A stretch of 63,079 bases of DNA, from the NCBI GenBank assembly GCA_030696455.1, contig JAUYSH010000028.1:1-63079 (forward strand), given 5' to 3'. The DNA comes from Elusimicrobiota bacterium. GTDB lineage: Bacteria; Elusimicrobiota; Elusimicrobia; UBA1565; UBA9628. Below, one piece after another: positions 3 to 24,502 of the stretch. A model generated the notes under the pieces. It was not told the DNA's origin. It ran no database searches and saw only the letters and a program-made list of their open reading frames with translations. The translations under genes were made by a program, and so were the position numbers. Position 1 is the first letter of the stretch, and each line of letters opens with the position of its first letter.

Positions 3-320
3 CGCCTGAAGAAGGCCGAGGCCCAGCCCGCCGAGGCGCGCGCCCGGGCGGTGGCCCTTCTCGGCGAGGCGCTGACCGGCTATTTCGCCGACAAGTTCGA
101 CCTGCCCGCGGCGAGCCTGACGCTCAAGTCCGTGACGCATCGCCTGCAGAACCGGAAGTCGCCTCCCTCCGCCGCCGAGCTCGCGCGCCTGAAGTCGGTC
201 TGGGGCGAGCTCGACCTGCTGCGCTACGCGCCCGGAGGCGCCGACAAGGCGGAGGTCAAGCGCCTCGCCGACGAGCTCCGCGACCTCACCGCCGCCTTCG
301 ACAGGGAGCTCCGCTCATGA
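3..320 (+). CDS. BatD family protein, C-terminal fragment
   Basis: This is the last 105 codons of a gene that begins before the window; the frame is open from base 3 with no start needed. The segment (ALTGYFADKFDLPAA ... LDLLRYAP ... LADELRDLTAAFDREL) matches the conserved cytoplasmic tail pattern of BatD proteins, which work with BatA, BatB and BatE in aerotolerance or envelope stress systems with MoxR ATPases. Its stop overlaps the ATG of the next gene (ATGA), a TPR/SH3 protein of BatE type, which supports the assignment. An internal GTG at 51 is not a believable start because homology continues upstream of it. Confidence 0.6.
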   Translation, partial: RLKKAEAQPAEARARAVALLGEALTGYFADKFDLPAASLTLKSVTHRLQNRKSPPSAAELARLKSVWGELDLLRYAPGGADKAEVKRLADELRDLTAAFDRELRS

Positions 321-1039
321 TCGCCGCCCTCCTGCTCGCCTTGCTGTCGCTGCCCGCCGCCGCCGCGCCGTACGACGACGCGCGGGCGGCCTACGACTCC
401 GGCGATTTCGAACGCGCCGCCGCCGCCTTCGCCGCGCTGTCCGCCGCGGACCCCGGCGACGCGGCGCTGCACTACGACCTCGGCGGCGCGCTGCTCAAGG
501 CCGGCAAGCTCGGACGCTCCTCCGCGTCGTACCAGCGGGCGTTCGACCTGGATCCGCGCGACGGCGACGTGCGCCACAACCTCGACTTCGTCCTGACGCG
601 CTCCGGAGAGGAGCTGACGCCTCCCGGCGTCCCCAAGCCGGCCTTCGCGGCGTTCACCGCGCTGTCCTCAAGGGAGCTCGCGGGCCTGCATTGGATCGCG
701 GCCTGGACGGCCATGATCCTGGCCGGGCTCGCCCTGCTCGGCGGCGCGGAGCGCCGAGAGAAGCTGAGCGGCTGGCTGATGGGGGCCGCCGCCGCCTGGC
801 TCCTGTTCGGACTTTGGTGGGCCGGGCTGCGCGCGGTGCTCCCGCCCGGACGGGGAGTCATCGTCGCCGGACGCGCGGAGCTGCGTAACGGCCCCGGAGA
901 GAAGTTCACCGTCGGCTACACCGCGCCGGAGGGCCGGCGCGTGCGCGTGCTGTCGCAAAGCGGCGAGTGGCTCGAGGTGGGCCTGCTCAAGGAAGGCGTG
1001 AAGGGCTGGATCCTGGCGGCGTCGGTAGAGAAGCTTTAG
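317..1039 (+). CDS. BatE-like TPR and SH3-domain membrane protein
   Basis: 240 residues. An N-terminal signal sequence (residues 1-17) is followed by tetratricopeptide-like helices at about 18-95. Two hydrophobic segments at 124-143 and 151-173 probably anchor it in the inner membrane. A bacterial SH3-like domain lies at about 180-240 (GRAELRNGPGEKF and GEWLEVG are typical). The order TPR, membrane helices, SH3 is that of BatE. Translation is coupled to the upstream BatD fragment by an ATGA overlap. BatE is thought to scaffold Bat complexes in the envelope; the substrate is unknown. The gene ends 7 nt from a convergent minus-strand gene. Confidence 0.7.
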   Translation: MIAALLLALLSLPAAAAPYDDARAAYDSGDFERAAAAFAALSAADPGDAALHYDLGGALLKAGKLGRSSASYQRAFDLDPRDGDVRHNLDFVLTRSGEELTPPGVPKPAFAAFTALSSRELAGLHWIAAWTAMILAGLALLGGAERREKLSGWLMGAAAAWLLFGLWWAGLRAVLPPGRGVIVAGRAELRNGPGEKFTVGYTAPEGRRVRVLSQSGEWLEVGLLKEGVKGWILAASVEKL

Positions 1040-1046
1040 ACGGCGC

Positions 1047-1610
1047 CTAGGGGTTGCGAGGCGTGATCGGCGTCAGAGGCACCACGGGCGCCGAAGGCCG
1101 GGGGGGCTCCGCGGCGACGACAACGGCCGGCTTCTTTTTCAAGGGCGGCGGCGCCATCTTCCCGGCCGTCTTGGCCTTCACGGCTTTCGCGGCCGGCTTT
1201 CCCTTCGGCGGAGACTTCATCAAGGTGGCCGTGGGGACGACCTTCTTTTTGGGAGGCGCGATTTCGACGCCTTCCTCCTCGTCGTATTCCTCGGGCTCGG
1301 ACGCCGCGGCCTTCACGCTGATGAGAGGCTCTTCCTTCTCCTTGACCGGGCTTGCCGCAGCTTCGTCCGCTTCGGGCTCGGGGGCGGTTTCAGCGGAGGT
1401 TTCAGCGGCGGGTTCAGCGCCGGGCTCGGCGTTGGCCTCGGCGTTGGCCTCGGCGCCGCCCTGCGGCTGAGGGTCCTCTGCTTCGCCTTCGCCCTCCGGA
1501 GGCGCCAACGGCTCCTCCTGCGCGGAGGATTCGGCCTCGCCGTCCTCTTGGGCGCGCAGAGGGGCCGCCAGGAGCAGGAAAAGGACGGGCAAAGGCCATA
1601 GCCGCTTCAT
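1047..1610 (-). CDS. Exported acidic, low-complexity protein
   Basis: 187 residues starting at the ATG whose first base is 1610. That start is chosen because it gives a clean signal peptide (MKRLWPLPVLFLLLAAPLRA) and has a GGAG Shine-Dalgarno 6-7 nt upstream. The mature part is disordered in appearance: Glu/Ala-rich with imperfect repeats of the type EANAEANAEPGAEPAAE (DNA period 12 near 1430-1450), then Lys/Pro-rich. No domain is recognised. A TACAAT -10 (plus-strand ATTGTA at 1650-1655) gives a leader of roughly 33 nt, unlike the leaderless genes nearby. Function unknown; it may act as an envelope linker or charge buffer. Confidence 0.6.
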   Translation of the reverse strand: MKRLWPLPVLFLLLAAPLRAQEDGEAESSAQEEPLAPPEGEGEAEDPQPQGGAEANAEANAEPGAEPAAETSAETAPEPEADEAAASPVKEKEEPLISVKAAASEPEEYDEEEGVEIAPPKKKVVPTATLMKSPPKGKPAAKAVKAKTAGKMAPPPLKKKPAVVVAAEPPRPSAPVVPLTPITPRNP

Positions 1611-1677
1611 GCGACGCTCCGCGCCGCCTGAATATCTTTCATACCCGCGATTGTAGCAAGGACTCATGACTAAAATA

Positions 1678-1706
1678 TTGCGCCCGGGCCGCCAGACTGA
1701 TAGGCT
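1678..1706 (+). promoter_or_regulatory. Sigma-70 type promoter of the fur-like gene
   Basis: TTGCGC (1678-1683), a 17-nt spacer and TAGGCT (1701-1706). The hexamer ends 6 nt before the GTG at 1713, so the transcript should start at or next to the start codon (leaderless). Confidence 0.5.
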
Positions 1707-1712
1707 ATCGTC

Positions 1713-2189
1713 GTGAGAGAGCTCGTCGTCTACGAAAGCGGCCGTGCCACGCACCACGCGGAAAAGATCGTGCGCGTGTTCACCGAGCACCTCGCCAAGA
1801 ACGGACTGCGCCTGACCGGCCAGCGCCGCCTCATCCTCGACTACTTTCTCAAGGCCGACCATCACCTCAGCCAGGATGAGATCTACATCGCCCTGCGCTC
1901 CCACGGGGTCGGCCGCGCCACCGTGTTCCGCACGCTCAAGATGCTCCAGGAGTGCGGCCTCATCTCGCCCGTCGTCGGCCGCGGCGGCACCACGCGCTTC
2001 GAGGTCGAGCACGACCGGCCGCACCACGACCACCTGATCTGCGTCACCTGCGGGCGCATCCAGGAGGTGCGGTGGCCCAAGCTCGAGAAGATCCAGGACG
2101 ACGCCTGCCGCCAGGCGGGGTTCGTGCCGAAGTGGCACCGTCACGAGGTCTTCGGCCAGTGCAGAAGCTGCGCCGCGAAACCCTCCTGA
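1713..2189 (+). CDS. Fur-family metal-dependent transcriptional regulator
   Basis: 158 residues. The N-terminal winged helix (about 30-95) contains RLTGQRRLILDYF and the recognition-helix pattern GRATVFRTLKMLQ. The metal-binding and dimerisation part carries HHDHLICVTCG (104-114), HRHE (142-145) and two CxxC pairs (C110/C113 and C150/C153) that would hold structural zinc. This fits Fur/Zur/PerR proteins, which repress metal or peroxide genes; which metal it senses cannot be read from sequence. The extended N-terminus (about 20 residues before the first helix) is slightly long. A GTG start is used, placed directly behind a promoter with no room for a leader. It stands alone, divergent from the acidic exported protein. 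Confidence 0.9.
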   Translation: MRELVVYESGRATHHAEKIVRVFTEHLAKNGLRLTGQRRLILDYFLKADHHLSQDEIYIALRSHGVGRATVFRTLKMLQECGLISPVVGRGGTTRFEVEHDRPHHDHLICVTCGRIQEVRWPKLEKIQDDACRQAGFVPKWHRHEVFGQCRSCAAKPS

Positions 2190-2215
2190 GCGCCCCAATC
2201 CCCGGCGACAATAGT

Positions 2216-2221
2216 TATAAT
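2216..2221 (+). promoter_or_regulatory. Perfect -10 hexamer for the ASCH gene
   Basis: TATAAT ends 8 nt before the GTG at 2230. No good -35 is seen. The position predicts a leaderless or nearly leaderless mRNA. Confidence 0.55.
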
Positions 2222-2229
2222 CTGACACG

Positions 2230-2595
2230 GTGAAACGTTTCCGTTTCGGCTGGTACGGCGACGGAGGCCTGGGTGAGAAGATGATCCAGGCCATCCTGGC
2301 GGGCCGCAAAACGGCTACCGCCTGCCCGGCCTATGACCCCGAGGACGCCGACCTGAAGGTCGGCGACGCGCTCCAGCTCGTCGACAAGCACGGCAACGTG
2401 AGGGCGCAACTCGTAGTTACGATCGTTGAATTGCGCACCTTCGGCAGCTTCAACGAGGACCTCGCGCAGCGCGAGGGCGTGACCTTGGCGGAGCTGAAGG
2501 ATAAGATGAACTTCGCCAACGGCCGGCAGATCCGAGAAGAGGAAGAGATGCGCGTCGTGCACTTCCGCGTCGTGCATGCGAGGGCCAAGCTTTAG
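2230..2595 (+). CDS. ASCH-domain protein
   Basis: 121 residues filled by one ASCH fold: FGWYGDGGLGEKMIQAILAG, then the diagnostic GRKTATA at 25-31, then a beta-rich part ending in RVVHFRVVHA. ASCH domains bind RNA or modified nucleosides; some members (the YqfB group) are amidohydrolases for N4-acetylcytidine, others may regulate translation. Nothing here distinguishes these. The GTG start sits 8 nt behind a TATAAT hexamer. The gene leads a probable operon with a small basic protein, miaB (tRNA modification) and a PilZ gene, so an RNA-related job is plausible but inferred. Confidence 0.7.
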   Translation: MKRFRFGWYGDGGLGEKMIQAILAGRKTATACPAYDPEDADLKVGDALQLVDKHGNVRAQLVVTIVELRTFGSFNEDLAQREGVTLAELKDKMNFANGRQIREEEEMRVVHFRVVHARAKL

Positions 2596-2603
2596 GAGAC
2601 CCC

Positions 2604-2783
2604 ATGATCCAGAAGAAGACGCTCGCCGCCCTCGAGAAGGTCATCATGGCGTTGGCGCCCCTCGATCCCGAGTCGCGCCGCCAGGTCGTCGAGGCGACGC
2701 ACAACCTCATCGAGATCGGCATGGGACGCCGCCAGGGCCAGGACGGCAAGCCGGCGAAGAAGAAGTCCAAGAGCAAGCGGTAG
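2604..2783 (+). CDS. Small basic protein of unknown function
   Basis: 59 residues: ATG 2604 to TAG 2781-2783, with an AGGAG Shine-Dalgarno just upstream. The first 45 residues look like two amphipathic helices (KKTLAALEKVIMALAPLDPE ... RQVVEATHNLIEIG) and the tail is very basic (KPAKKKSKSKR), which suggests nucleic-acid or ribosome contact. It fits tightly between the ASCH gene and miaB (2 nt to the miaB ATG). Too short for family recognition; the call rests on its start site, tight operon position and coding-like composition. Confidence 0.6.
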   Translation: MIQKKTLAALEKVIMALAPLDPESRRQVVEATHNLIEIGMGRRQGQDGKPAKKKSKSKR

Positions 2784-2785
2784 AC

Positions 2786-4084
2786 ATGCGCCTCCACGTC
2801 GTCACCTTCGGCTGCCAGATGTCGGTCGCCGACGGAGAAGAGCTGGCCTCGCCGCTCACGGGCCGGGGTTTCACCGCCGTCGCCGGGCCGGAGACGGCGG
2901 ACGCGATCGTGCTCAACACCTGCACCGTGCGCCAGCACGCCGAGGACAAGGCGCTGTCCTTCATCGGCCGCCTGCGGGACTGGAAGGAGAAGGACCCCGA
3001 GCGCGTGCTGATCGTCGCGGGCTGCGCGGCCGAGAGGCTCGGCCCCTGGATCCAGAAGCGCTTCCCGTACGTGGACCTCGTCGTCGGCGCCAAATCCATC
3101 GAGGACTATCCGCAGATCGTGGAGGAGGCGCTCGGCGCGCGCTTCGACGCGCTGGCGGAGACCCGCCAGGCGTTCGCGCCGGAGACCCTCGACAAACCCA
3201 CGGGCTGGGCCTCGCCCTGCACCGCCTTCGTCACCATCATGCGCGGCTGCAACTACTCCTGCTCTTACTGCATCGTGCCTTCGGTGCGGGGACGCGAGCT
3301 GTACCGGCCGTATGAGACCGTCATGGACGAGGTGAAGGAGAAGGTCGGGCGCGGAGCGAAGGAGATAACTCTCCTCGGTCAGACCGTCAACAGCTGGCAT
3401 GCCCCGGAGGGGGGAGCGGAGATCCGCTTCCCGGAGCTGCTGAGACGCCTGGGGAAGGTCGAGGGCTTGGAACGGATACGCTTCGAGAGCCCTCACCCTC
3501 ACTTCGTGAACGACGATCTGATCGCGGCGATGGCGACGACAAAGAATATTTGCGAGCAGATCCATCTTCCTCTCCAATCCGGATCGGACCGGCTGTTGAA
3601 GATCATGCGCCGCAACTACGACGCGGCCTCGATCCTGGACAAAACCGCGCGCCTGCGGCGCGCGATACCTTTCGTTGAAGTCACCACGGACATTATCGTA
3701 GGATTCCCCTCAGAGACCGACGAGGATTTCGAGCGGACCCTCGACGTGGTCAAGGCTTTGCGGCCGTCGTGGTCGTACACGTTCAAGTACTCGCCCCGCG
3801 AGGGGACCGAGTCGGCGGGCATGGAGGACGACGTGCCCGACGCGGTGAAAGAAGGGCGCCTGCAAAGGCTCAACGTCCTGTGCGACGCGCTGACCGAGGA
3901 AGCCCTGGCGGCGCGGGTCGGAAAGACCGTGGACGTGCTGGACGAGGGCGGCGGCTTCGGCCGCACGCGGGACGGCTTCAAGGTCTCATGGACCGGGGGC
4001 GGGCCCGCGGGACGGACCGTCAAGGTCCGCGTGACCGGGACGAGCAAACGGATTTTGAAAGGGGAAACAGATGAGCGAGCATAA
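2786..4084 (+). CDS. miaB: tRNA-2-methylthio-N6-dimethylallyladenosine synthase MiaB
   Basis: 432 residues. Radical-SAM methylthiotransferase that adds the 2-methylthio group to isopentenylated A37 of tRNAs. The N-terminal domain has the three auxiliary cluster cysteines C10 (FGCQM), C46 (NTCTV) and C80 (AGCAAE). The radical-SAM motif is C155-x3-C159-x2-C162 (RGCNYSCSYCIVP). The HLPLQSGSDRLLKIMRRNY segment and a C-terminal TRAM domain complete the family order. The motif usually written FGCQMNxxDSE reads FGCQMSVADGE here. Start chosen at ATG 2786, 2 nt after the preceding stop, since residues upstream are not homologous. Its partner enzyme MiaA is encoded at 8105. Confidence 0.93.
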   Translation: MRLHVVTFGCQMSVADGEELASPLTGRGFTAVAGPETADAIVLNTCTVRQHAEDKALSFIGRLRDWKEKDPERVLIVAGCAAERLGPWIQKRFPYVDLVVGAKSIEDYPQIVEEALGARFDALAETRQAFAPETLDKPTGWASPCTAFVTIMRGCNYSCSYCIVPSVRGRELYRPYETVMDEVKEKVGRGAKEITLLGQTVNSWHAPEGGAEIRFPELLRRLGKVEGLERIRFESPHPHFVNDDLIAAMATTKNICEQIHLPLQSGSDRLLKIMRRNYDAASILDKTARLRRAIPFVEVTTDIIVGFPSETDEDFERTLDVVKALRPSWSYTFKYSPREGTESAGMEDDVPDAVKEGRLQRLNVLCDALTEEALAARVGKTVDVLDEGGGFGRTRDGFKVSWTGGGPAGRTVKVRVTGTSKRILKGETDERA

Positions 4085-4538
4085 GAAGACCGGAGCCGAG
4101 CGCCGCAAGCACCGCCGCTTCAGCGTCGTCGAAGGGATGGTCGAGCCGATCACGCTCGAGCTCGAGGGCAGCGACAGCCTGATGCACAAGCAGCCCGCGA
4201 TCATGACCGACCTCTCCGCCGGCGGCATCTCCCTGCTCATGTTCATCGAGCCGCCCCACGCCAAGAGCTTCCAGATGACGCTCAACATCCCCGGGCTCGA
4301 GGGCGTTCCGATCGAGGCCGGCATCGTGCGAGTCCACCAGAAGGGGGAGACCTACAGCGTCGGCCTCGCCTTCCGCAAGATCTCGCGCGAGGCCCAGAAG
4401 GCCATCGAGAAGATGGCCGAGGACAGCGCCGACTGCCAGACGCGCACCTCTCTCGGGCTGCCCGACGCCTGCGGCTCCGACTGTCCTTTTCACTCGCTGT
4501 TCTCCGGGAAGGCGAAGGCCGCGCGCAAGGCGAAGTAA
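4071..4538 (+). CDS. PilZ-domain protein
   Basis: 155 residues. A PilZ domain spans about 8-130: the basic RRKHRR at 11-16 and DLSAGGISL at 47-55 are the two halves of the cyclic-di-GMP binding signature (RxxxR and [D/N]xSxxG), so ligand binding is likely retained. A C-terminal extension has four cysteines (DCQTRTSLGLPDACGSDC) that might bind metal, and a basic tail. The start overlaps the end of miaB by 14 nt. PilZ proteins relay c-di-GMP to motility, pili or polysaccharide machinery; the partner is not evident, though a pilT gene lies at 30.6 kb. Confidence 0.85.
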   Translation: MSEHKKTGAERRKHRRFSVVEGMVEPITLELEGSDSLMHKQPAIMTDLSAGGISLLMFIEPPHAKSFQMTLNIPGLEGVPIEAGIVRVHQKGETYSVGLAFRKISREAQKAIEKMAEDSADCQTRTSLGLPDACGSDCPFHSLFSGKAKAARKAK

Positions 4539-4545
4539 AACCTGG

Positions 4546-7056
4546 GTGAGAAAGGCTCGAGCGGCGCTCGCGCTTCTGCTCGCCTTCGCCGTCCCCGTTC
4601 GCGCCGAGACGACGACCGACCCTCTCTGGTACCTGCTCTCGACCGTCATACTGGCCCCTGACGCCGCGGCTGTCGAGGCGCCCGGCGACGGCCCCGCCGA
4701 CGCGAAGGGACTGGCCGCGCTCCAGGCCGACCTTCTGGTCCTGACCGACGGCCTCGAGGGCTTCCGGGACGAGGCCCAGGTCCAGGATACGCTCGAGCGG
4801 CTCAAGCCGCGGATGTCCCCGGAGCTCAGGCCTTTCTTCAAGGACCGATCTTCGAGCCTCGACGCGATCTATCGCACGCTCGCGATCACCGACTACACCT
4901 GGGCCCTGCGGTTCCCCGAACCGCCGTGCGAGCCGGGCCAGGCTCGCCGCAGGCTCCTGGCCGGCCGAGACGGCTTGTTCCAGGACGAATCCGGCGCGCC
5001 CTCTCCATGGCTTTTATCCTTGCTCGGCCCGCAGACCGAGGGGACGACCGCCGAGCAAGCCCTCGATCAAGCGTCTTCTCTCTCGAACCTGACCGGCGCC
5101 GAGTACGAGAAGCTCCGCGCCCGCGTCCGCAACCTGACCATGGCGCTCGCTTCGCACAAGGCGGTCGGCCCGGCCCGCTCCCGGCTCTACTGCTCCCGTG
5201 CCGCCGCGTTCGCGGATCTCGCCGCCGCACACCGCGAGAAGGACGCCAACCTCATCTCGGCCGGACGCGGCATTGCGCATAAGCCGGAGGAGAGCGTATT
5301 CGTCGTCGTGTGGAAGGGGCAGCGCGCCGCCGCCACTTTGCTGAAAACCAAAGACGGCTCGGTGCTCGTGACCGACGCGTCCGTCGTCGCCGACACCGAC
5401 CATCCCGGCCTTTTCGCGTATTCCGCGAACGCGAAGCCCATCGAGTTCAAGGCGACCGTCGTCCGCCGCCAGTCCGAGCTCGGCGTGGCCGTGCTCACTT
5501 TTGCCAAGTCTCCTGCCGGCCCCGCTCTCAGACTCGCGGACCAAGCCCCCGAGAAAGACGAACTCGTCACCGCCATCGGGCACACGACGATCTCGGGCTT
5601 GTGGACCAAGACCTCCGGTCTCGTGACGAAAGCGGGCGAGATCAGCTTCCAGACGGATGCCGCGATCTCGCCGGAGCTCAGCGGAGGCCCTGTTCTCAAC
5701 GACGCGGGGGAGGTCACTGGGATGCTCGTGCTGCGTCCGGCCGACACGGAGGAGGGCCGCTGGCCCGTCGCCATACCGGCGCCCATCCTCGCACGCTGGC
5801 TCGAGGACCCCTCGTATTCGGTCGCCGCCGGCCCCGTGGAATCCATCGAGGATGACGGCACGGCCGCGATCCTGACTCGGGCCCGTCCCAGCGCACTCAC
5901 GGAAGCAGGGCTTGGCGCGTGGAACATCCCAAGCCTGCCGCCCCCGCCTCCGACGCCGCGCGGCGTCTGCGTCGCCAACTGTGGCGGATCGAGGTCCTCC
6001 GGGTCGTCCTACTCCAGCGGCTTCACAGGCAACGGGGGAGAGGAGTTGGGGAAGGCGCTCGGAGAACTCGGGGCCGTACTTATCCTTAAAGGCATTCCGG
6101 CGCTTTTCCGGGGGATTGGGAAACTATTCAAAGACAGGGACAGGTCATCAAACATCGCTCAGACCAAGCCCGCATCGAGCCCTAAACCAAAAGTTCGATC
6201 CAAGAAACCAGCGCCGCCGCCCCCGCCAGCGGAATGCAGACTCAAGTCTCTCTCCGCACCAAAAGTCGCCGGGGAGGTTCCTTTTGAAATTTCGGTTCAA
6301 TTGTCCTGCGACGATCCGAAGGTTAAGCTCAGCGGCTATCCCGTCACCTTTTCGGTGAGTCTGGACAGCGGAACGCTGACCAAGGCAAAGGTCGTTTACA
6401 CTGACAATCTCGGGATTGCTCGCTTTCCGATTCAAATCGCCAACGAAGAGGTGGCTGTTCATAAGGTCAAAACGACGGCCGAGCGGTTTCATGATGATCT
6501 CGACGAGTACGCCCGAGAAATGGATTCTCCGGCTGACTTAATGCGTGATCCCGGTCTGACTGAGGCCGCCAGTCCAACCACGATCGAGAAGGCGGCTACC
6601 ACGGCGGTAATCGCAAAGAACGCCCGAAGTGCTTCGAAAGCACGCAAAGTCTTTACTGTCGCAAGAGCGGTGCGTCACATACGTGTTGTCGGTGTAATCG
6701 GGGGCGTCGCAACCGGAGGAATCAGCCTCGTCGTTTCGATGATTGCAACGGAGGTCATTTTCGCTCTTGGAGAAAAAGCGCTGGGCGCGCACGCGGATGG
6801 CCAAGATTCGCGTGTGGCAGAGTCGAGGAGTGATGATGATCCGTGCGAAGGACTTCGAGAGCAGTTAAATGCACATATCAGGAAGCTGCAGGAATATATC
6901 GACAACCCCCATGGTCACGACAACAAGGGCTTTCTGGGGCAGGGACGAGATGAAAAGGTAATTGAAGGACGGAAGCGAAGTCTTCAGAAGCAGATTCGAA
7001 ATTTCAGAAGCCTTCTTGAGGAATGCGAGAGACTAAATGAAAAACCAACCGAATGA
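4546..7056 (+). CDS. Exported multidomain protein: degenerate trypsin-like domain, Ig-like domain and polymorphic-toxin-like C-terminus
   Basis: 836 residues from a GTG. Signal peptide 1-20. A helical region (50-235) leads to a trypsin/HtrA-like beta-barrel at about 245-425 in which Ser379 survives (ELSGGP) but the expected His is Ser279 (DASVV) and the Asp is Gly313 (ELGVAVL), so it is probably inactive. Then a polyproline stretch (465-469), a Gly/Ser-rich linker, a second Pro-rich linker, an Ig-like domain (565-645), a glycine-rich hydrophobic segment (714-741) and a C-terminal helical domain (766-836) with LQEYIDNP, DNKGFLGQGR and EGRKRSLQKQIRNF. That last pattern recalls toxin tips of Rhs/CDI-type polymorphic toxins (from memory). 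Base composition turns AT-rich from about 6150, a sign of domain exchange. The downstream gene overlaps by 20 nt and looks like its immunity partner. The toxic activity is unproven. Confidence 0.5.
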   Translation: MRKARAALALLLAFAVPVRAETTTDPLWYLLSTVILAPDAAAVEAPGDGPADAKGLAALQADLLVLTDGLEGFRDEAQVQDTLERLKPRMSPELRPFFKDRSSSLDAIYRTLAITDYTWALRFPEPPCEPGQARRRLLAGRDGLFQDESGAPSPWLLSLLGPQTEGTTAEQALDQASSLSNLTGAEYEKLRARVRNLTMALASHKAVGPARSRLYCSRAAAFADLAAAHREKDANLISAGRGIAHKPEESVFVVVWKGQRAAATLLKTKDGSVLVTDASVVADTDHPGLFAYSANAKPIEFKATVVRRQSELGVAVLTFAKSPAGPALRLADQAPEKDELVTAIGHTTISGLWTKTSGLVTKAGEISFQTDAAISPELSGGPVLNDAGEVTGMLVLRPADTEEGRWPVAIPAPILARWLEDPSYSVAAGPVESIEDDGTAAILTRARPSALTEAGLGAWNIPSLPPPPPTPRGVCVANCGGSRSSGSSYSSGFTGNGGEELGKALGELGAVLILKGIPALFRGIGKLFKDRDRSSNIAQTKPASSPKPKVRSKKPAPPPPPAECRLKSLSAPKVAGEVPFEISVQLSCDDPKVKLSGYPVTFSVSLDSGTLTKAKVVYTDNLGIARFPIQIANEEVAVHKVKTTAERFHDDLDEYAREMDSPADLMRDPGLTEAASPTTIEKAATTAVIAKNARSASKARKVFTVARAVRHIRVVGVIGGVATGGISLVVSMIATEVIFALGEKALGAHADGQDSRVAESRSDDDPCEGLREQLNAHIRKLQEYIDNPHGHDNKGFLGQGRDEKVIEGRKRSLQKQIRNFRSLLEECERLNEKPTE

Positions 7057-7348
7057 GATCGATTTAGCCGAGCTAAAGCGCACCGTAGACGCGATCTTCG
7101 AGCACCTTCTAAATGATGTGGGCGTCAAGAAAGTAACGATCCCCAACGATACTGATTTCTATTGGGAAGTGCCGAGCGACGAGTTATATTCTGTCAGCCA
7201 GGCCCAACCGAAGCTTGATACAGGACGCTTAACCGATGACTGGGAATTTTTGTCCCCGATTCTTAAGGATAATCGCCAGGCGGTCGGGTTAATGTTCACC
7301 CACATAGCCCCGTTGCTTAGGTATATCGGACAAAAGGAAAGCCGATAA
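7037..7348 (+). CDS. Candidate immunity protein for the upstream toxin-like protein
   Basis: 103 residues, acidic, no signal peptide. DFYWEVPSDELYSV and LTDDWEFLSPIL resemble a small-protein pattern I associate with genes directly after DNKG-type toxin tips; this is recall, not a search. It starts inside the end of the 836-residue gene (20-nt overlap), the usual coupling of toxin and immunity genes, and shares its low GC. If correct, it would stay in the cytoplasm and neutralise the C-terminal domain. Alternative: an unrelated small orphan. Confidence 0.45.
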   Translation: MKNQPNEIDLAELKRTVDAIFEHLLNDVGVKKVTIPNDTDFYWEVPSDELYSVSQAQPKLDTGRLTDDWEFLSPILKDNRQAVGLMFTHIAPLLRYIGQKESR

Positions 7349-7397
7349 CTTCCTAGGCGCCGCCTTTGCGCATGCGCCAAGCGTTTCCCAACGAAAG

Positions 7398-7718
7398 ATG
7401 AATATCAAAGAGTTCGAAGCAAAGCATCCCGACTTTGCCGGTCTCGCTGATGATTTCTCGGACCCGCCTCCCTCGCACACCACTGACGAGGCTCTCGCAC
7501 GGTCTGTGCGGAGAGACTGGGATGACGGGGAGCGGATTCGAGCGATCGGCTGCCTACTGAAGGAGGCGCGTTCCATCCGTGCCAACCTCGATGAGGAGTG
7601 GGGTGCCCTGGGTGAGTTTCTGTCGCGCCCGTTTGCGCGGCGTGAGGACGCCGCACGGTGGCTCGACGGAGTGGTGCCGGTGTGGGAAATGGAACTCGCG
7701 CGTTTGGAGCGCGGCTAG
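7398..7718 (+). CDS. Small acidic protein, immunity-like paralogue 1
   Basis: 106 residues starting at ATG 7398. Sequence order: FADDFSDP-like N-terminus (DFAGLADDFSDP), a TDEALARSVRRDW segment, ERIRAIGCLLKEA, then NLDEEWGALGEFLSRPF and EDAARWLDGVVPVWEMEL. The pattern is loosely like CdiI-type immunity proteins of contact-dependent inhibition systems, but I cannot confirm the family. A second, diverged copy follows at 7730-8052. Tandem small acidic paralogues behind a toxin gene are typical of immunity arrays. It lies 49 nt after the first candidate immunity gene; no signal peptide. Confidence 0.5.
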   Translation: MNIKEFEAKHPDFAGLADDFSDPPPSHTTDEALARSVRRDWDDGERIRAIGCLLKEARSIRANLDEEWGALGEFLSRPFARREDAARWLDGVVPVWEMELARLERG

Positions 7719-7729
7719 CCCGGCGAACG

Positions 7730-8052
7730 ATGCGACGAAACGAATACAAAAACAAGTACCGGACCTTCTCGGGCTACCTTCACGACTTCAGTGACCCGTG
7801 TCTGAAGATGCTGTCTCAGATGAGGATATTGCGAGGCGCCTTCGAGCGGACTGGCCCGTGCGCGAGCGTATCAGCATGTTCGAGGAACTTATACCTGAGG
7901 CCGGGCGCATGTTGTCCGGGATTGACGCCGAGTGGCAGGCGTTCTCGGAGACCCTCAACCGCCGGTTCGTCAACTCCCAAGACGCCGCAGACTGGCTCAC
8001 GGGGGTCAGGCGTGCTTGGCAGGAAGAGCTCGCTCATTTAAAAGAGCCTTGA
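7730..8052 (+). pseudogene. Immunity-like paralogue 2, split by a frameshift
   Basis: From ATG 7730 the frame reads NEYKNKYRTFSGYLHDFSDP, matching the start of the 7398 gene (EFEAKHPDFAGLADDFSDP). At about 7796-7800 the frame is lost and the homology continues one frame back in the ORF 7798-8052 (DEDIARRLRADWPVRERI ... ISMFEEL ... DAEWQAFSETLNRRFVNS ... DAADWL). Together the two parts align along the whole length of paralogue 1. Either one base was lost or gained (true decay or sequencing error), or only the 84-residue downstream ORF from GTG 7798 is made. Confidence 0.55.
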
Positions 8053-8104
8053 CCATATATTTCGAACGGTTTAGATGAGGCCCGAGAAGTTTCCGACCGT
8101 TACA

Positions 8105-9064
8105 ATGATGAAAACAGTTGAAATTGCGCGCGGCCGGTCAGTCCTAGTTCTCGCCGGCCCGACGGCCTCCGGCAAGACCGATCTTTCCGTCGCCCTGGCC
8201 GAGCGGATCGGCGCCGAGATCGTCTCCGCCGATTCGCGCCAGGTGTACCGCCGCCTCGACGCCGGCACGGCCAAGCCCTCCGCCGCGCAGCGCGCGCGCG
8301 TGCCTCATTGGTTGCTCGACTGCGCCGATCCCGCTGAAGCCTTCGACGCCGCGCGCTGGGCCAACGAAGCGTCCGCCGCGATCGCGGATATCAAAGCGCG
8401 CGGAAAAATCCCGCTCGTCTGCGGCGGCACCGGTCTTTATCTGCGCGCCTTGCTCGAGGGCCTCTCGCCCCTGCCCCCGCGCGACGAGACCGTCCGCGCG
8501 CGGCTCCACGCCGAGGCGGAGAAGCACGGACGCGAAGCCCTGCACGCGCGCCTGACCGAGGCCGACCCGGAGGCCGCCGCCGGCATACCGCCGGCGAACC
8601 TCCAGCGCGTCGTGCGCGCTCTTGAAGTATTCGAGCTCACCGGCAAGCCGATCTCCCGGCACTGGCGCGAGGGCCGGGGGGGCGGGATGGCCCCCGCGCT
8701 CGCGCTGCGCTTGGAGCTGACGCCGGAGCTCTCGCGCGAGCGGATCGAGGCGCGCGCGAAGGCGATGTGGCCCAATCTCCTCGCGGAGGTGAAAGCGTTG
8801 GTCCCAAATGAGTATATTGGGACCGAGCCCGGGTTCACCAGCCTCGGCTACCGCGAGGCGCTGGCCTGCTCGCGGGGGGAGCTGACGCAGGAGGCGGGCC
8901 TCGCGGAGATGATCCGCGCGACCGTCGCCTACGCCAAGCGCCAACGCACCTGGTTCCGCAACCAGCTCGACGCGCGGGCGCTCGACGCCTCGGCGGGCCC
9001 GGACGAGCTGCTCGCGCGCGCCGTGAGACTTTGGGAGGAAGCACTTGAAAAAACCGCCGCTTAA
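8105..9064 (+). CDS. miaA: tRNA dimethylallyltransferase MiaA
   Basis: 319 residues. Transfers the dimethylallyl group from DMAPP to N6 of A37 in tRNAs reading UNN codons, the substrate step before MiaB. P-loop GPTASGKT at 18-25, SADSRQVYRRLDAGTAKPS, the GGTGLYLRALLEG motif and the C-terminal TWFRNQ segment are characteristic. Start set at ATG 8105 (next ATG 8108) rather than the upstream ATG 8075, because family proteins begin shortly before the P-loop and a TTGACC-17-TAGATG promoter covers 8049-8077. It returns the composition to high GC after the island. The end overlaps the next gene by 20 nt. Confidence 0.93.
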   Translation: MMKTVEIARGRSVLVLAGPTASGKTDLSVALAERIGAEIVSADSRQVYRRLDAGTAKPSAAQRARVPHWLLDCADPAEAFDAARWANEASAAIADIKARGKIPLVCGGTGLYLRALLEGLSPLPPRDETVRARLHAEAEKHGREALHARLTEADPEAAAGIPPANLQRVVRALEVFELTGKPISRHWREGRGGGMAPALALRLELTPELSRERIEARAKAMWPNLLAEVKALVPNEYIGTEPGFTSLGYREALACSRGELTQEAGLAEMIRATVAYAKRQRTWFRNQLDARALDASAGPDELLARAVRLWEEALEKTAA

Positions 9065-10589
9065 GAACCCGCAGCTGCTGCCGCCGTCCGCCACGCCCTA
9101 TATGCTCGGCAGCCTTTTCCTGTCCGGCGCCTCCTGCCTCGTCCTCGAGATCTCGGGCGCGCGCCTGATCAGCCCCTTCTACGGCTCCTCGATCTACACC
9201 TGGTCGGCCATGATCACGGTGACCTTGGTCTCCCTCGCCGCCGGCTACGCCTGGGGAGGCCGCCAGGCCGACCGTCAGCCCTACCTCCTATTGTTCGCGC
9301 GCCTGCTCACCGCCTCGGGGCTGACGGTCGCCGCCGTCCCCTGGTTGCGCGAGCCCGTGCTCAAGGCGACTTTGCCCCTGGGCGTGCAGGCCGGGGCGTT
9401 CGTGAGCGCCGCGGCGCTGATGGGCCCCGCGCTCGTGCTGCTCAGCGCGCTGGGCCCCGTCGCCGTGCGCCTGACCGCCACGGGGGCGTTCGACGCGGGG
9501 CGCAAGTCGGGCGACGCATGGGCGGTCTCCACCACGGGCAGCGTCCTCGGCGCGGTGCTGGCCGGCTTCGTGCTGATCCCGCACCTTCCGATTTCCACGA
9601 TCATCTACGGGACCGCGCTGCTGCTCATGATCCTCGGCGCGCTCGGCTCATGGCTGTCCCAGCGCGCGGCGCCGGTCGCGCAGCTCGCGGCGTGCGCCGC
9701 CTGCGTCGGCCTGATGCTGATGCCCGCGGCGAAGACCCGCCACTCCCTATCGGCGCGCGAGTCGGCCTACGGCCGCATCGTCGTGATGGACACGCCGTCG
9801 CGCCGCTACCTGCTCGTCAGCGGCACGAGCCAGTCGGTGATGGAGAAGGCCGACGGGGAGAGCGAGTCGCAGTACATCCGCGCCCTGGAGTGGCCGCGCG
9901 CGCTGCGCCCCCGGGCCAAGACCGCCTTGGTCGTGGGGCTCGGGGCCGGCCTGCTGCCCAAGGCGCTCGAGCGCCGCGGCCTGACCGTGGACTCCTTCGA
10001 GATCGACCCCATGATCGCCGAAGCGGCCGTCGCCGACTTCGACTTCAAGCCGAAGGGGAAGATCGTCATCGGCGACGGCCGGGCCCTGCTCGAGCAAGGG
10101 CACGGGCCGTGGGACCTGGCCTACCTCGACGCCTTCGGCGCCGAGTCCCCGCCCGCGCACCTGTTCACGACGGAGGCGTTCGCGCGCCTGCGGGATTCCC
10201 TGACGCCGGACGGTGTGTTCGCGATCAACCTCGTCTGCGCGATGACGGGGCCCGACGACCGCCCCTGGAAGGCCGTGTACCGCACCATGGCCGAGGTGTT
10301 CCCGAACGTGCGCGCCTTCATCGCCAGCGAGCCCAACGACGGCCTGGCCAACGTACTGCTCTTCGCGTCAACGGGTCCGCTCCAGGCGGGGCCGCCCGCG
10401 GCGCCCGAGCGCACCTCCAAGGAGGTCGCCTTGATGCTGAGCCGGGAGCTGATCCCGCTGCCCGGCGACCTCGCGGCCGTGCCCCTGCTCACCGATGACT
10501 ACGCGCCGCTCGACACCTTGCTGGCGGGCACCGCGCGCCGCTGGCGGACCCTTCTGCAGCGCTCCATGCCCGAGGTCCTGCTCGACTGA
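9045..10589 (+). CDS. Membrane-bound spermidine synthase-like protein
   Basis: 514 residues from a TTG start, chosen for the GGAGGAAG Shine-Dalgarno and the Lys-rich N-terminus. The first ~225 residues hold 6-7 hydrophobic helices (for example LFLSGASCLVLEISGARLISP, typical of fused MFS/spermidine synthases). The C-terminal half is a Rossmann methyltransferase-like aminopropyltransferase domain: VVGLGAGLLPKAL at about 295, FEIDPMI, GDGRALL and the gatekeeper-like YLDAFGAESPP at about 360, then LTDDYAPLD near the end. Such proteins may make polyamines or bind S-adenosyl compounds at the membrane; the donor/acceptor pair cannot be assigned. Overlaps miaA by 20 nt and hflX by 1 nt. Confidence 0.75.
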   Translation: MKKPPLKNPQLLPPSATPYMLGSLFLSGASCLVLEISGARLISPFYGSSIYTWSAMITVTLVSLAAGYAWGGRQADRQPYLLLFARLLTASGLTVAAVPWLREPVLKATLPLGVQAGAFVSAAALMGPALVLLSALGPVAVRLTATGAFDAGRKSGDAWAVSTTGSVLGAVLAGFVLIPHLPISTIIYGTALLLMILGALGSWLSQRAAPVAQLAACAACVGLMLMPAAKTRHSLSARESAYGRIVVMDTPSRRYLLVSGTSQSVMEKADGESESQYIRALEWPRALRPRAKTALVVGLGAGLLPKALERRGLTVDSFEIDPMIAEAAVADFDFKPKGKIVIGDGRALLEQGHGPWDLAYLDAFGAESPPAHLFTTEAFARLRDSLTPDGVFAINLVCAMTGPDDRPWKAVYRTMAEVFPNVRAFIASEPNDGLANVLLFASTGPLQAGPPAAPERTSKEVALMLSRELIPLPGDLAAVPLLTDDYAPLDTLLAGTARRWRTLLQRSMPEVLLD

Positions 10590-21370: not shown

Positions 21371-21503
21371 TTATCCCCAGGCCTTTCACCGCTGCATGTC
21401 TTTACTCCGTCGTATATGTCTTATCATTCATTCTTGAGTCAGACGATTTGTCCTATATAAGCGGCTATAAATGGTCTGAACGCTTATTCACGACTTATCC
21501 ACA
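21371..21503 (+). promoter_or_regulatory. Cluster of DnaA-box-like 9-mers
   Basis: TTATCCCCA (21371-21379, one mismatch), TTATTCACG (21484-21492, one mismatch) and TTATCCACA (21495-21503, perfect consensus). The last two are in tandem, same strand, 2 nt apart, in the only AT-rich stretch of the region. dnaA itself is not in the window. Confidence 0.5.
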
Positions 21504-21531
21504 GCCGGTAGACCTTTTTGTTGACATATGC

Positions 21532-21537
21532 GATAAT
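21532..21537 (+). promoter_or_regulatory. -10 hexamer of the winged-helix-like gene
   Basis: GATAAT ends 6 nt before ATG 21544, predicting a leaderless mRNA; it supports that start over the ORF beginning at 21448. Confidence 0.45.
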
Positions 21538-21543
21538 CAAGAC

Positions 21544-22050
21544 ATGAACCCCCATCGCGTCAGACTCAAGCTGCCCAACGGAGCCGAGCTCGAGGTCGAA
21601 GGCGACGCGGAGTTCGTGCGCCAGGAGCGCGAGGAGTTCGTGCTACGCCAGACGCCGGCGGCCGGCGCCGAGGCGGCCGGGCCGAGGCGCGAGCCGCGGG
21701 TCGAATGGAACGCGGTGGTGGAGGCCAAGAGCGGGGGGCTGACGCTGCGGGGCAAGATCCCCGGGGGCGACAAGGCGGGCAAGGACGCGTGCCTGGTGCT
21801 CCTGATGGCCTCGGAGAGGCTCCTGAGCCTGCCAAAGCCCACGGCGACCTTGGTGGCCAAGTGGCTGCGGGCGTCGGGGTATCCGATAGGGCGGATGGAT
21901 AGGACGATGCAGGACGCGATCGCGCAGGGCGAGCTGCTGTCTTCGGGGTCGCGCCGGTCGCGGAGATATGAGCTGACCGCAACGGGCAAGATAAAAGCCC
22001 TGCTGCTGGCGGAGCAGCTGACGGCGACGGTGCTGGGCAAGCGGCCGTAA
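21544..22050 (+). CDS. Putative winged-helix DNA-binding protein
   Basis: 168 residues. The N-terminus (VRLKLPNGAELEVEGDAEFV) is a small beta element seen at the start of several bacterial orphan proteins. The C-terminal ~80 residues (ASERLLSLPKPTATLVAKWL, YPIGRMDRTMQDAIAQGELL, SRRYELTATGKIKALLLAEQ) look like a winged helix with a basic wing. I recognise no family. It sits between DnaA-box-like sites and a dif-like site plus A-tract array, so a role at that chromosomal locus is possible but only inferred from position. Leaderless start predicted from GATAAT at 21532. Confidence 0.55.
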   Translation: MNPHRVRLKLPNGAELEVEGDAEFVRQEREEFVLRQTPAAGAEAAGPRREPRVEWNAVVEAKSGGLTLRGKIPGGDKAGKDACLVLLMASERLLSLPKPTATLVAKWLRASGYPIGRMDRTMQDAIAQGELLSSGSRRSRRYELTATGKIKALLLAEQLTATVLGKRP

Positions 22051-22256: not shown

Positions 22257-22284
22257 ACTATTGATAATATTTATTATGTTGCTT
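22257..22284 (+). other. Candidate dif (XerC/XerD recombination) site
   Basis: 28 bp in dif layout: a left 11-mer ACTATTGATAA, a central hexamer TATTTA and a right 11-mer TTATGTTGCTT. The inner part (ATAAT ... ATTATGTT) is close to the general bacterial dif consensus; the outer ends differ. It is AT-rich inside GC-rich DNA and lies where long leftward and rightward gene runs converge. No xer gene is present in the window. Confidence 0.45.
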
Positions 22285-22429
22285 ACAGATAGGGGAGCGC
22301 CGCCCGGGCATAACCGATAGTCCCGCGCAAGTTCGAGCGATTTACCTCGTACGGATAACGTGAATTCGCGTCAAACGCCACGGTTTGTGAGATATTCTAA
22401 ATTGGCAGTCGACGCCCCCCTGGAAGTTG

Positions 22430-23045
22430 GCAAAAATCCGGGTGGAGCTCGGCTGCGCCGGCCGGAAATCAGCCCAAAAGTCGGCAAGAATCCGGAGATC
22501 CTGGGGCAGCTTGGGAGAGCCGAAAAAACCATGAAAGGGCCAGGGGTAGGATACCCCCGGATCGGCCGGGCAGCCGAAAAAACCATCGGAGCCGGCGGGA
22601 AACTTGGCAACTTTTTGGGGACCGGGCAGCCGGTAATCGGGGCGTCAAAAAAACCACCTCAGGCCCTAGGGTAAACGACGCGAAAAACCAGCCAAGATCC
22701 GGGCGGTTTCCGGAAAAACAGGGATGGCCGAAAACACCATGAAAGACCTGGGGCCGCGGCAGCCAAAAAACCTGGCAAGTTTCCGGGAATCCCGGTGGAC
22801 CCGAAAAAACCAGGTAAGAGACCGGCGGCTGGAGGCCGAAAAACCAGGCAAGAAATCACCCGACTCCGAAGGATCCGGTGATGCGAAAAAGACTATGGAA
22901 AGAAAAAAGGGCCGGGAGGCGTCGAACGAAAAAAACCATCGAAGACCCCGGGATCGGGAGGCGGTCCGCGGAATCCGAAAAAACACCGAACGCCGGAGCT
23001 CAAAAACGGGAGCTCCGGGCCTGAGATGGTTTTTTCGGTTTTAAG
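22430..23045. repeat. A-tract array (about 16 copies of CCGAAAAAACCA-like units)
   Basis: Runs of 4-7 A flanked by CCG and CCA recur at 22432, 22475, 22523, 22577, 22647, 22684, 22714, 22731, 22766, 22804, 22840, 22886, 22903, 22930, 22979 and 23002, all on one strand, followed by an inverted copy (TGGTTTTTTCGG, 23027-23038). The fuller unit is close to CCGAAAAAACCATGAAAG. Spacers of 17-70 nt are GC-rich and include small palindromes such as CCGGGAATCCCGG and the GGAGCTC/GAGCTCC stem at 22995-23016. Confidence 0.75.
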
Positions 23046-23301
23046 CGGAGGGAGGGGCGGGAGGGAGGGAGGGCAGGAAAAGGCCGACGCCGATCGCGGC
23101 ATAGCCGCCGATCAGGAGGAATGGGGAGACCAGAGCGGGAAGGTTGCGGCCGAGGGGATCGGCGAAGGAGAGGATGACGAAGCCGGCGATCACGAGAGCT
23201 CCCCCCATCCCTATCAACCGCTTTCCCACGGCCGAGAGCGGCTCATAGGAGAGGGGCGGCGCGGGACGATCCTTCTTCGCGGTGTTTTTGTTCCTGGCCA
23301 C
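23041..23301 (-). CDS. Small two-helix membrane protein
   Basis: 86 residues from a GTG. A basic N-terminus (ARNKNTAKKDR) precedes two hydrophobic segments (LIGMGGALVIAGFVILSFA at about 29-47 and ALVSPFLLIGGYAAIGVGLFL at about 56-76) and a Pro-rich end, so both ends should face the cytoplasm. It is the last gene of the long minus-strand operon, 1 nt after lysA. No family recognised. Its stop codon touches the end of the A-tract array. Confidence 0.65.
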   Translation of the reverse strand: MARNKNTAKKDRPAPPLSYEPLSAVGKRLIGMGGALVIAGFVILSFADPLGRNLPALVSPFLLIGGYAAIGVGLFLPSLPPAPPSA

Positions 23302-23302
23302 T

Positions 23303-24502
23303 CTAGAGCTCCCCCCTCGTGAGGTCCCGATACGTCTCTCTGCGCCGCGCCAGCCTGGACTTCCCCCCGTCCACGAGCACCTCGGCGGCGCGAGGGCGGG
23401 AGTTGTACTGGCTGCTCATGGCGAAGCCGTAGGCCCCGGCCTTGAGCACGGCGAGAAGGTCCCCCCTCTCGAGGGGCGGCAGGGGCCTCTGGCGAGCGAG
23501 GAAGTCTCCCGACTCGCAGACGGGCCCCACGACGTCCGCCATGGTCTTTTTTCCTTTGCGGGGTGCCACGACCATCACGGGGTGCCAGGCGTCGTACAGC
23601 GCGGGCCTGGGCAGGTCCGTCATGGCCGCGTCGACGATGACGAAGCGCCGCTTCGAGGTGCGCTTACGGTAGAGCACCGCCGTCAGCAGCAGCCCGGCGT
23701 CGGCGACGAGATAGCGTCCCGGCTCGACGAGCAGCTCGAGCTCCGGCTGCCCCGCGAAGGCCGCTTCCAGGGTCTTCACGAGGGCGCGCGGGTCCAGAGG
23801 CCTCTCGTCCTTGTAGGTGATGCCCAGGCCCCCGCCCACGTCCGCGAAATCGAGCGGGATGCCTTGCGCCTTCAGGGAGGCCGCCAGACGCGCCACGGCG
23901 GCCGCCGCGCGCGCGTAGGGCGTCAGGGAGGTGATCTGCGAGCCGATGTGGCACTGGAGGCCCGTGACGCGCAGGCGACGGTCCTGGGCGGCGCGGCGGT
24001 ACAGCGCCAGCGCCTCCCCTGTCTCCACCCCGAACTTGTTCTCCGCCCTCCCGGTGGTGATGTGAGGGTGGGTCTTCGCGTTGATGTCGGGGTTCAGGCG
24101 TATGGAGACGGGAGCCCTCTTTCCCAGGCGACCGGCGACGCGCGCGAGCGCGTCGAGCTCCTCGGACGACTCCACGTTGAAGGCCTTCACGCCGGCGCGG
24201 AGTCCGGCGGTCATCTCCGCCTCGGTCTTTCCGACGCCGGAGAACACGACGCGCGACGGCCGGAATCCCGCGCGCAAGGCGCGCCCCAGCTCCCCGCCGG
24301 AAACGATGTCGGCGCCGGCGCCCTCGCGCGCGAGCACGGAGGCGACGGCCCGGCTCGAGTTGGCCTTCAGCGCGTAGCAGACGAGCGCGGGGCGGGTGAA
24401 GGCTCCCTGGAGGGCGCGGTAGCGGTCGCGCACGACGGCGGCGTCGTAGACGTACAGGGGGGTGCCGTAACGGCGCGCGAGCGCCGCGAGGAGCCCCTTC
24501 AC
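23303..24502 (-). CDS. lysA: Diaminopimelate decarboxylase
   Basis: 399 residues. Makes lysine from meso-diaminopimelate with PLP. The PLP lysine is K46 (CYALKANSS); HIGSQI (185-190), DVGGGLGI (221-228), EPGRYLVADAG (260-270) and the active-site CESGD (329-333) are all intact. The start is the GTG at 24502, which overlaps the upstream stop as GTGA; the open frame continues further back but only into the neighbour gene's repeats. Partner enzyme DapB is encoded at 48962. Confidence 0.93.
   Translation of the reverse strand: MKGLLAALARRYGTPLYVYDAAVVRDRYRALQGAFTRPALVCYALKANSSRAVASVLAREGAGADIVSGGELGRALRAGFRPSRVVFSGVGKTEAEMTAGLRAGVKAFNVESSEELDALARVAGRLGKRAPVSIRLNPDINAKTHPHITTGRAENKFGVETGEALALYRRAAQDRRLRVTGLQCHIGSQITSLTPYARAAAAVARLAASLKAQGIPLDFADVGGGLGITYKDERPLDPRALVKTLEAAFAGQPELELLVEPGRYLVADAGLLLTAVLYRKRTSKRRFVIVDAAMTDLPRPALYDAWHPVMVVAPRKGKKTMADVVGPVCESGDFLARQRPLPPLERGDLLAVLKAGAYGFAMSSQYNSRPRAAEVLVDGGKSRLARRRETYRDLTRGEL

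Follow-up and report, generated by a model that had tools for sequence, protein, structure and literature searches.

The window considered here, the whole 63,079-nt contig JAUYSH010000028.1 of a metagenome-assembled Elusimicrobiota genome (GenBank assembly GCA_030696455.1), carries a non-coding array of short A-tract repeats that is held at fixed distances from dif, the chromosomal Xer recombination site, and whose units follow the helical repeat of B-DNA. The layout of these predicted elements is dif, a core motif at constant distance on the XerD side, a polar phased array and one inverted unit that caps it. The array is ancient, and more ordered than a preliminary description of this DNA had recognized. 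There is strong reason to think that it is a protein-binding DNA array whose putative sites present the same face of the helix.

Units, phasing and distances from dif

The preliminary description reported about 16 A-tract repeats at 22430–23045, all on one strand up to a single inverted copy at the end. Both statements hold: units scored with a position weight matrix (PWM) built over related arrays, and matches to an 18-mer, are present far beyond chance, and the inverted copy lies at 23020–23039. Type I units, about 15 bp long as are all units, have the consensus CCNAAAANACCATGAAAGG, and the weaker type II units carry the motif AAAAGTYGGCAAG, also given as AAAANNNGGCAAG; the conserved motif reaches past the A-tract (ACCATGAAAGG). 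The window holds nine strong units (eight of type I, all on the + strand, plus the inverted copy) and about 16 overall, the type II starts including 22416, 22459, 22470, 22593, 22678, 22761 and 22834. The array is, as had been stated, not a CRISPR, satellite or gene; the near-identical repeats and regular spacing of CRISPRs and tandem satellites are not found in it.

The units are concentrated at this locus. At a PWM threshold of 15 the window has seven forward matches, every one inside the array, and two reverse matches, of which one is the inverted copy. An 18-mer search allowing up to 3 mismatches gave 5 matches in the 4.0-Mb genome, all at the array. A scan of 56 whole genomes of the order gave 62 near-exact unit matches, 50 of them on array contigs (two of these 50, in genome G015, having no confirmed dif), and zero matches for the backward control. 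Some single or paired units are found outside array loci, and most of those checked sit in long open frames. One locus (L009, G029:C184:14443-14523) has two strong units 62 bp apart outside long open reading frames, on a contig in which dif was not found. The preliminary description had allowed that the array might be absent or scattered in close relatives, or reflect a general intergenic density of A-tracts; instead it is conserved in relatives and its units are concentrated at the dif locus.

The steps between units had been called irregular, and this did not survive analysis, as the gaps are multiples of ∼10.45 bp. Gaps between adjacent type I units peak near 43, 53, 63, 73, 84, 94 and 104 bp, with few or none at 55–59, 66–69, 76–81 and 87–92 bp. 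Among periods of 6–20 bp the best is 10.45 bp (R = 0.52, n = 170), the highest R in 1000 runs of a jitter control being 0.24. Phasing is kept in 19 genomes of less than 75% identity (R = 0.59, p ≤ 0.0005) and in 11 of less than 62% identity (p ≤ 0.0005), and because it persists in these low-identity subsets, common ancestry cannot account for it. Tandem duplication of one module was rejected as the cause of the spacing since gaps span many multiples, from 4 to 12 turns.

The same pattern was recovered when the matrix from the first set was applied to 43 held-out dif loci in genomes outside that set, many of them belonging to different families and classes. There the matches numbered 119 forward versus 21 in reverse complement and 10 in the reversed control, and the gaps gave R = 0.64 with a period of 10.50 and a phase of 0.6 bp. 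Of the gaps, 88% in the training set and 86% in the held-out set deviate by no more than 2.6 bp from a multiple of 10.45, where 50% is expected. The units also keep phase with dif itself (R = 0.46 in training and 0.31–0.41 in the held-out loci at threshold 12). Phasing of this kind is the signature of putative DNA sites that are read on one face of B-DNA.

Two readings that need no specific DNA-binding protein meet this evidence directly. Intrinsic curvature, in which phased A-tracts would bend the DNA by themselves, had been suggested as a principle of the array and draws on the recurrence of A-tracts in helical phase. It is exceedingly improbable: a wedge model predicts no more curvature than in phase-scrambled copies, the array is strand-polar, and conservation extends beyond the A-tract. 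A long non-coding RNA with a defined structure, read from the dif side up to a terminator-like inverted copy, might be suspected from the many small palindromes in the array, the possible pairing of the last unit with the inverted copy and the hairpins of two related loci (L099 and L100), but this too is very improbable. An RNA gene was rejected because the covariation term of RNAalifold was unfavorable (+9.06 over six close arrays, with no support from covarying pairs), the consensus energy of the reverse strand was at least equally good, and Rfam gave no match of note; in addition, the final hairpin of the window is gone in L019 and L065, and the spacing tracks the B-DNA repeat.

The extent first given for the feature, 22430–23045, is right for the repeats and too short for the whole, which starts earlier, at dif (22257) and the core (22395–22410). 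From the GATAA of dif to the core TTCTAAATTRGCAGTC the distance is 130–133 bp in 35 loci and 131–135 bp in another 43, which come from additional families and classes, and thus 130–135 bp over 78 loci across the phylum, the most divergent of which were searched with up to 7 mismatches tolerated and only over a short range near the expected distance. The phylum-wide core consensus is TTCAAAGTTAGCAGTC, and the sequence between dif and core is poorly conserved despite the constant distance. Of 36 loci, 20 have their first type I unit at +254 to +257 from dif, 11 have it at +265 to +269 and 2 have it at +237 or +247, the alternative positions being shifts by one or two helical turns. A type II position at +207 is shared by most genomes in the first set. 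At the far end, the start-to-start spacing between the inverted unit and a forward unit is 94 bp at 15 loci, and a further three show 104 or 105 bp. The elements in the window are as follows.

22257..22284, + strand: chromosomal dif (probable), with XerC arm ACTATTGATAA, centre TATTTA and XerD arm TTATGTTGCTT
22395..22410, + strand: core motif TTCTAAATTGGCAGTC, +132 bp from dif
22459..22489, + strand: type II units with starts 22459 and 22470, in a shared helical register
22519..22538, + strand: first type I unit, +256 from the GATAA of dif
22573..22592, + strand: type I unit
22644..22663, + strand: type I unit
22678..22697, + strand: type II unit, following a type I unit at 34 bp
22727..22746, + strand: type I unit
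22761..22780, + strand: type II unit
22800..22819, + strand: type I unit
22834..22853, + strand: type II unit
22883..22902, + strand: type I unit, divergent
22926..22945, + strand: type I unit, 94 bp ahead of the inverted copy
22974..22993, + strand: type I unit, weak
23020..23039, − strand: terminal inverted unit that closes the array

Spacer palindromes of the type GGGTATCC/GGATACCC occur at 22555–22570 in the window and in loci of widely separated families (L168, L170, L153 and L099), and are perhaps sites of another protein.

The dif locus and its surroundings

The site beside the array had been described as dif-like, and it is probably the true chromosomal dif. It is a 28-bp site with two recombinase arms and a 6-bp centre, and the array always lies on its XerD (TTATGTTA) side. 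A sequence-only search model comprising dif and 135 bp downstream finds the site in 181 of 295 Elusimicrobiota genomes, and almost all positives have just one match. In a complete genome of 1,643,562 bp the match is at 917,171 and dnaA at 889, and in one of 1,588,979 bp the match is at 626,154 (weak, E = 0.03) and dnaA at 1,331,316, which places dif 56% and 44% of the way round the circle from dnaA, roughly opposite it. The site is thus one per chromosome and near the terminus, genome G010 (below) being asymmetric. XerC/D-type recombinases and FtsK, as a dif system demands, are found in Elusimicrobiota genomes.

Genome G024 carries an element of ∼9.4 kb inserted precisely at dif, with two hybrid dif sites as the result, and because this element used dif for integration, the site appears to be an active Xer site. 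The element (L028, G024:C41, reverse strand 311-9690) has a hybrid dif at both ends. Its products include a glucosaminidase/endolysin and an ATPase of the packaging type (PHROG terminase-like, E = 2e-9), and it is probably a Xer-integrating phage of Elusimicrobiota. It was rejected as the source of the array, which it adjoins and did not bring. An array inside a mobile element was likewise rejected, given the absence of internal genes and the conserved synteny.

Dif, core and array are kept in place across the class, and dif and core across the phylum. The array is found once per genome, reaches ∼500–760 bp from dif and has 5–12 units. In most relatives the gene order is kept as winged-helix gene, dif, array, 86-aa gene and lysA, the genes in the window being:

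21544..22050, + strand: gene for a winged-helix protein of 168 aa, directly upstream of dif on the same strand, a constant arrangement in class Elusimicrobia
23041..23301, − strand: gene for an 86-aa membrane-like protein, a conserved neighbor by tblastn synteny
23303-24490, − strand: lysA, a conserved neighbor with LysA domains

The winged-helix fold was assigned by fold prediction and Foldseek. The protein has 37 homologues, with dif downstream and the layout described above preserved in nearly all that have enough flanking sequence, and its family matches no Pfam or NCBIfam model. In the 1,643,562-bp genome the gene lies ∼12 kb from dif with a stop codon in its reading frame (G071:C1:904549-905211). 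Before the start codon in the window, the stretch 21448-21543 is conserved in related loci (..TTYPQPVDLF.. if translated) and is possibly a leader or another conserved DNA element.

The C-termini of four FtsK proteins (L224-L227) hold a divergent gamma-like winged-helix stretch, RRRVSQDLLKxxFGSSARATNILS. The Pfam FtsK_gamma model, which misses this divergent stretch or scores it low, missed 3 of 4 genomes. The FtsK orienting polar sequences (KOPS) of Elusimicrobiota may differ. Replacement of FtsK control was rejected as a possibility, the FtsK proteins ending in this gamma-like stretch after all.

Possible roles of the array

We infer both the binding protein and the function of the array from its sequence. 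A conserved, sequence-specific protein would bind each unit, and all bound copies would therefore lie on one face of the helix, where they could build a cooperative filament or loop. We tentatively propose that the array may be an accessory arm of chromosomal dif in Elusimicrobiota that acts with XerCD. Such a nucleoprotein arm might contact XerCD at dif and set the geometry of the reaction, and it might also pair sister dif sites and favor resolution or time it at division. The model for this proposal is the accessory DNA bound by ArgR and PepA at plasmid cer (PMC5357621). The roles suggested in the preliminary description, a macrodomain, partition or fork-arrest element, are rivals to it.

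It is possible, if unlikely, that the array is instead a terminus centromere or anchor, whose bound protein would tether or organize the terminus, through the septum or a division or segregation protein, with no action on Xer recombination; array and dif would then adjoin because both act at the terminus. The terminus position and the presence of the array once per genome in nearly all cases agree with this, as does its phased same-face layout, which is typical of plasmid centromeres and of architectural sites. One Foldseek match of the winged-helix neighbor, a weak one, is the centromere-binding protein AspA. However, direct coupling to dif is suggested by the exact distance from dif to core and by the way the array is phased to dif, and no ParA-like partner or septal protein turned up beside the array, no dedicated search having been made.

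The strict polarity of the units and their location adjoining dif could also be read as a polar replication fork barrier, a cluster of one-way sites of the Tus/Ter or RTP kind. This is improbable, as such traps need neither phasing over 4–12 turns nor phase to dif, and they require opposing sets on both arms of the terminus whereas near dif units are found on one side only. Nor is it at all probable that the units are a KOPS-like signal that loads, orients or stops FtsK beside dif. The array does lie on the side of XerD, the recombinase activated by FtsK (PMC5357621), and the FtsK gamma region is divergent in the phylum, but KOPS are short and chromosome-wide, the units are larger and gathered at one locus, and loading of FtsK predicts no helical phasing.

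Several observations weigh against an accessory arm at dif. Some lineages, among them several small genomes of host-associated size (e.g. G056, G071 and G060), keep dif without recognizable units, the core being kept in at least two of them; the array is therefore not essential for dif and can be lost. The gamma-like C-terminus of FtsK may mean that the usual control of dif already exists. In G010, dif is 1.09 Mb from dnaA one way and 2.71 Mb the other (29%), and the skew is too weak to locate the terminus. Finally, the winged-helix gene is missing from five genomes that carry arrays of the same motif (G036, G158, G259, G189 and G182), and because it is absent where arrays are present its product is unlikely to be the general binder and was rejected as such.

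More broadly, the chances appear about even that the phylum possesses a new type of nucleoprotein machine in which a dedicated, predicted DNA-binding protein on the phased sites controls either the resolution of chromosome dimers or the segregation of the terminus; no such layer of dif control is known in other bacteria. The unit AAAANACCATGAAAGG offers a precise bait for finding the binding protein.

Comparison with known systems

As far as could be found, an array at dif is previously undescribed. A dif site had been predicted for one Elusimicrobia genome by Kono et al. (2011; PMC3025954), and the passages available of that paper mention neither core nor array. Literature searches on Elusimicrobia, dif and arrays gave nothing matching within the accessible literature, most subscription literature being outside reach. 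The array is not assigned to the cer, KOPS or fork-trap families because it fails tested features of each.

The repeated motifs of predicted protein sites in helical register resemble those of plasmid centromeres and iteron arrays. Those arrays are spaced at short, regular intervals and lie next to genes for partition or replication, whereas this one spans steps of 4–12 turns, is tied to dif and lacks neighboring genes of that kind. KOPS are short motifs spread over the chromosome and pointing to dif, a distribution not seen for these units, which are concentrated at dif. The opposing polar sites that Tus–Ter and RTP systems place on both sides of the terminus were not found near dif, distant sites not having been searched systematically.

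Several features recall the plasmid sites cer (ColE1) and psi (pSC101), at which a Xer core adjoins non-coding DNA that ArgR or ArcA and PepA wrap to control recombination (PMC5357621). Here too a Xer site has adjoining non-coding DNA, with putative protein sites, and the spacing of core and accessory DNA is likewise fixed, through the dif–core distance and the phase of the units to dif. Unlike at cer and psi, the site is a chromosomal dif and the array lies on the XerD side. At both plasmid sites the architectural DNA adjoins the Xer core on the XerC side, an arrangement not found at any of the arrays. The accessory DNA of cer is also only ∼180 bp, compared with the longer reach of the array and its repeated phased units.

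Textbook accounts present chromosomal dif as nothing more than a 28-bp site under FtsK, with accessory DNA deemed a plasmid trick. The Elusimicrobiota site resembles dif of the Escherichia coli type, governed by FtsK and KOPS, in its 28-bp two-arm structure near the terminus, its XerC/D-type recombinases and its FtsK, but differs in that the E. coli type is described as needing only the 28-bp site and FtsK whereas a phased array adjoins dif here. Fixed to dif phylum-wide, such an array would mean that a large nucleoprotein complex dedicated to the task can take part in resolving chromosome dimers or in handling the terminus.
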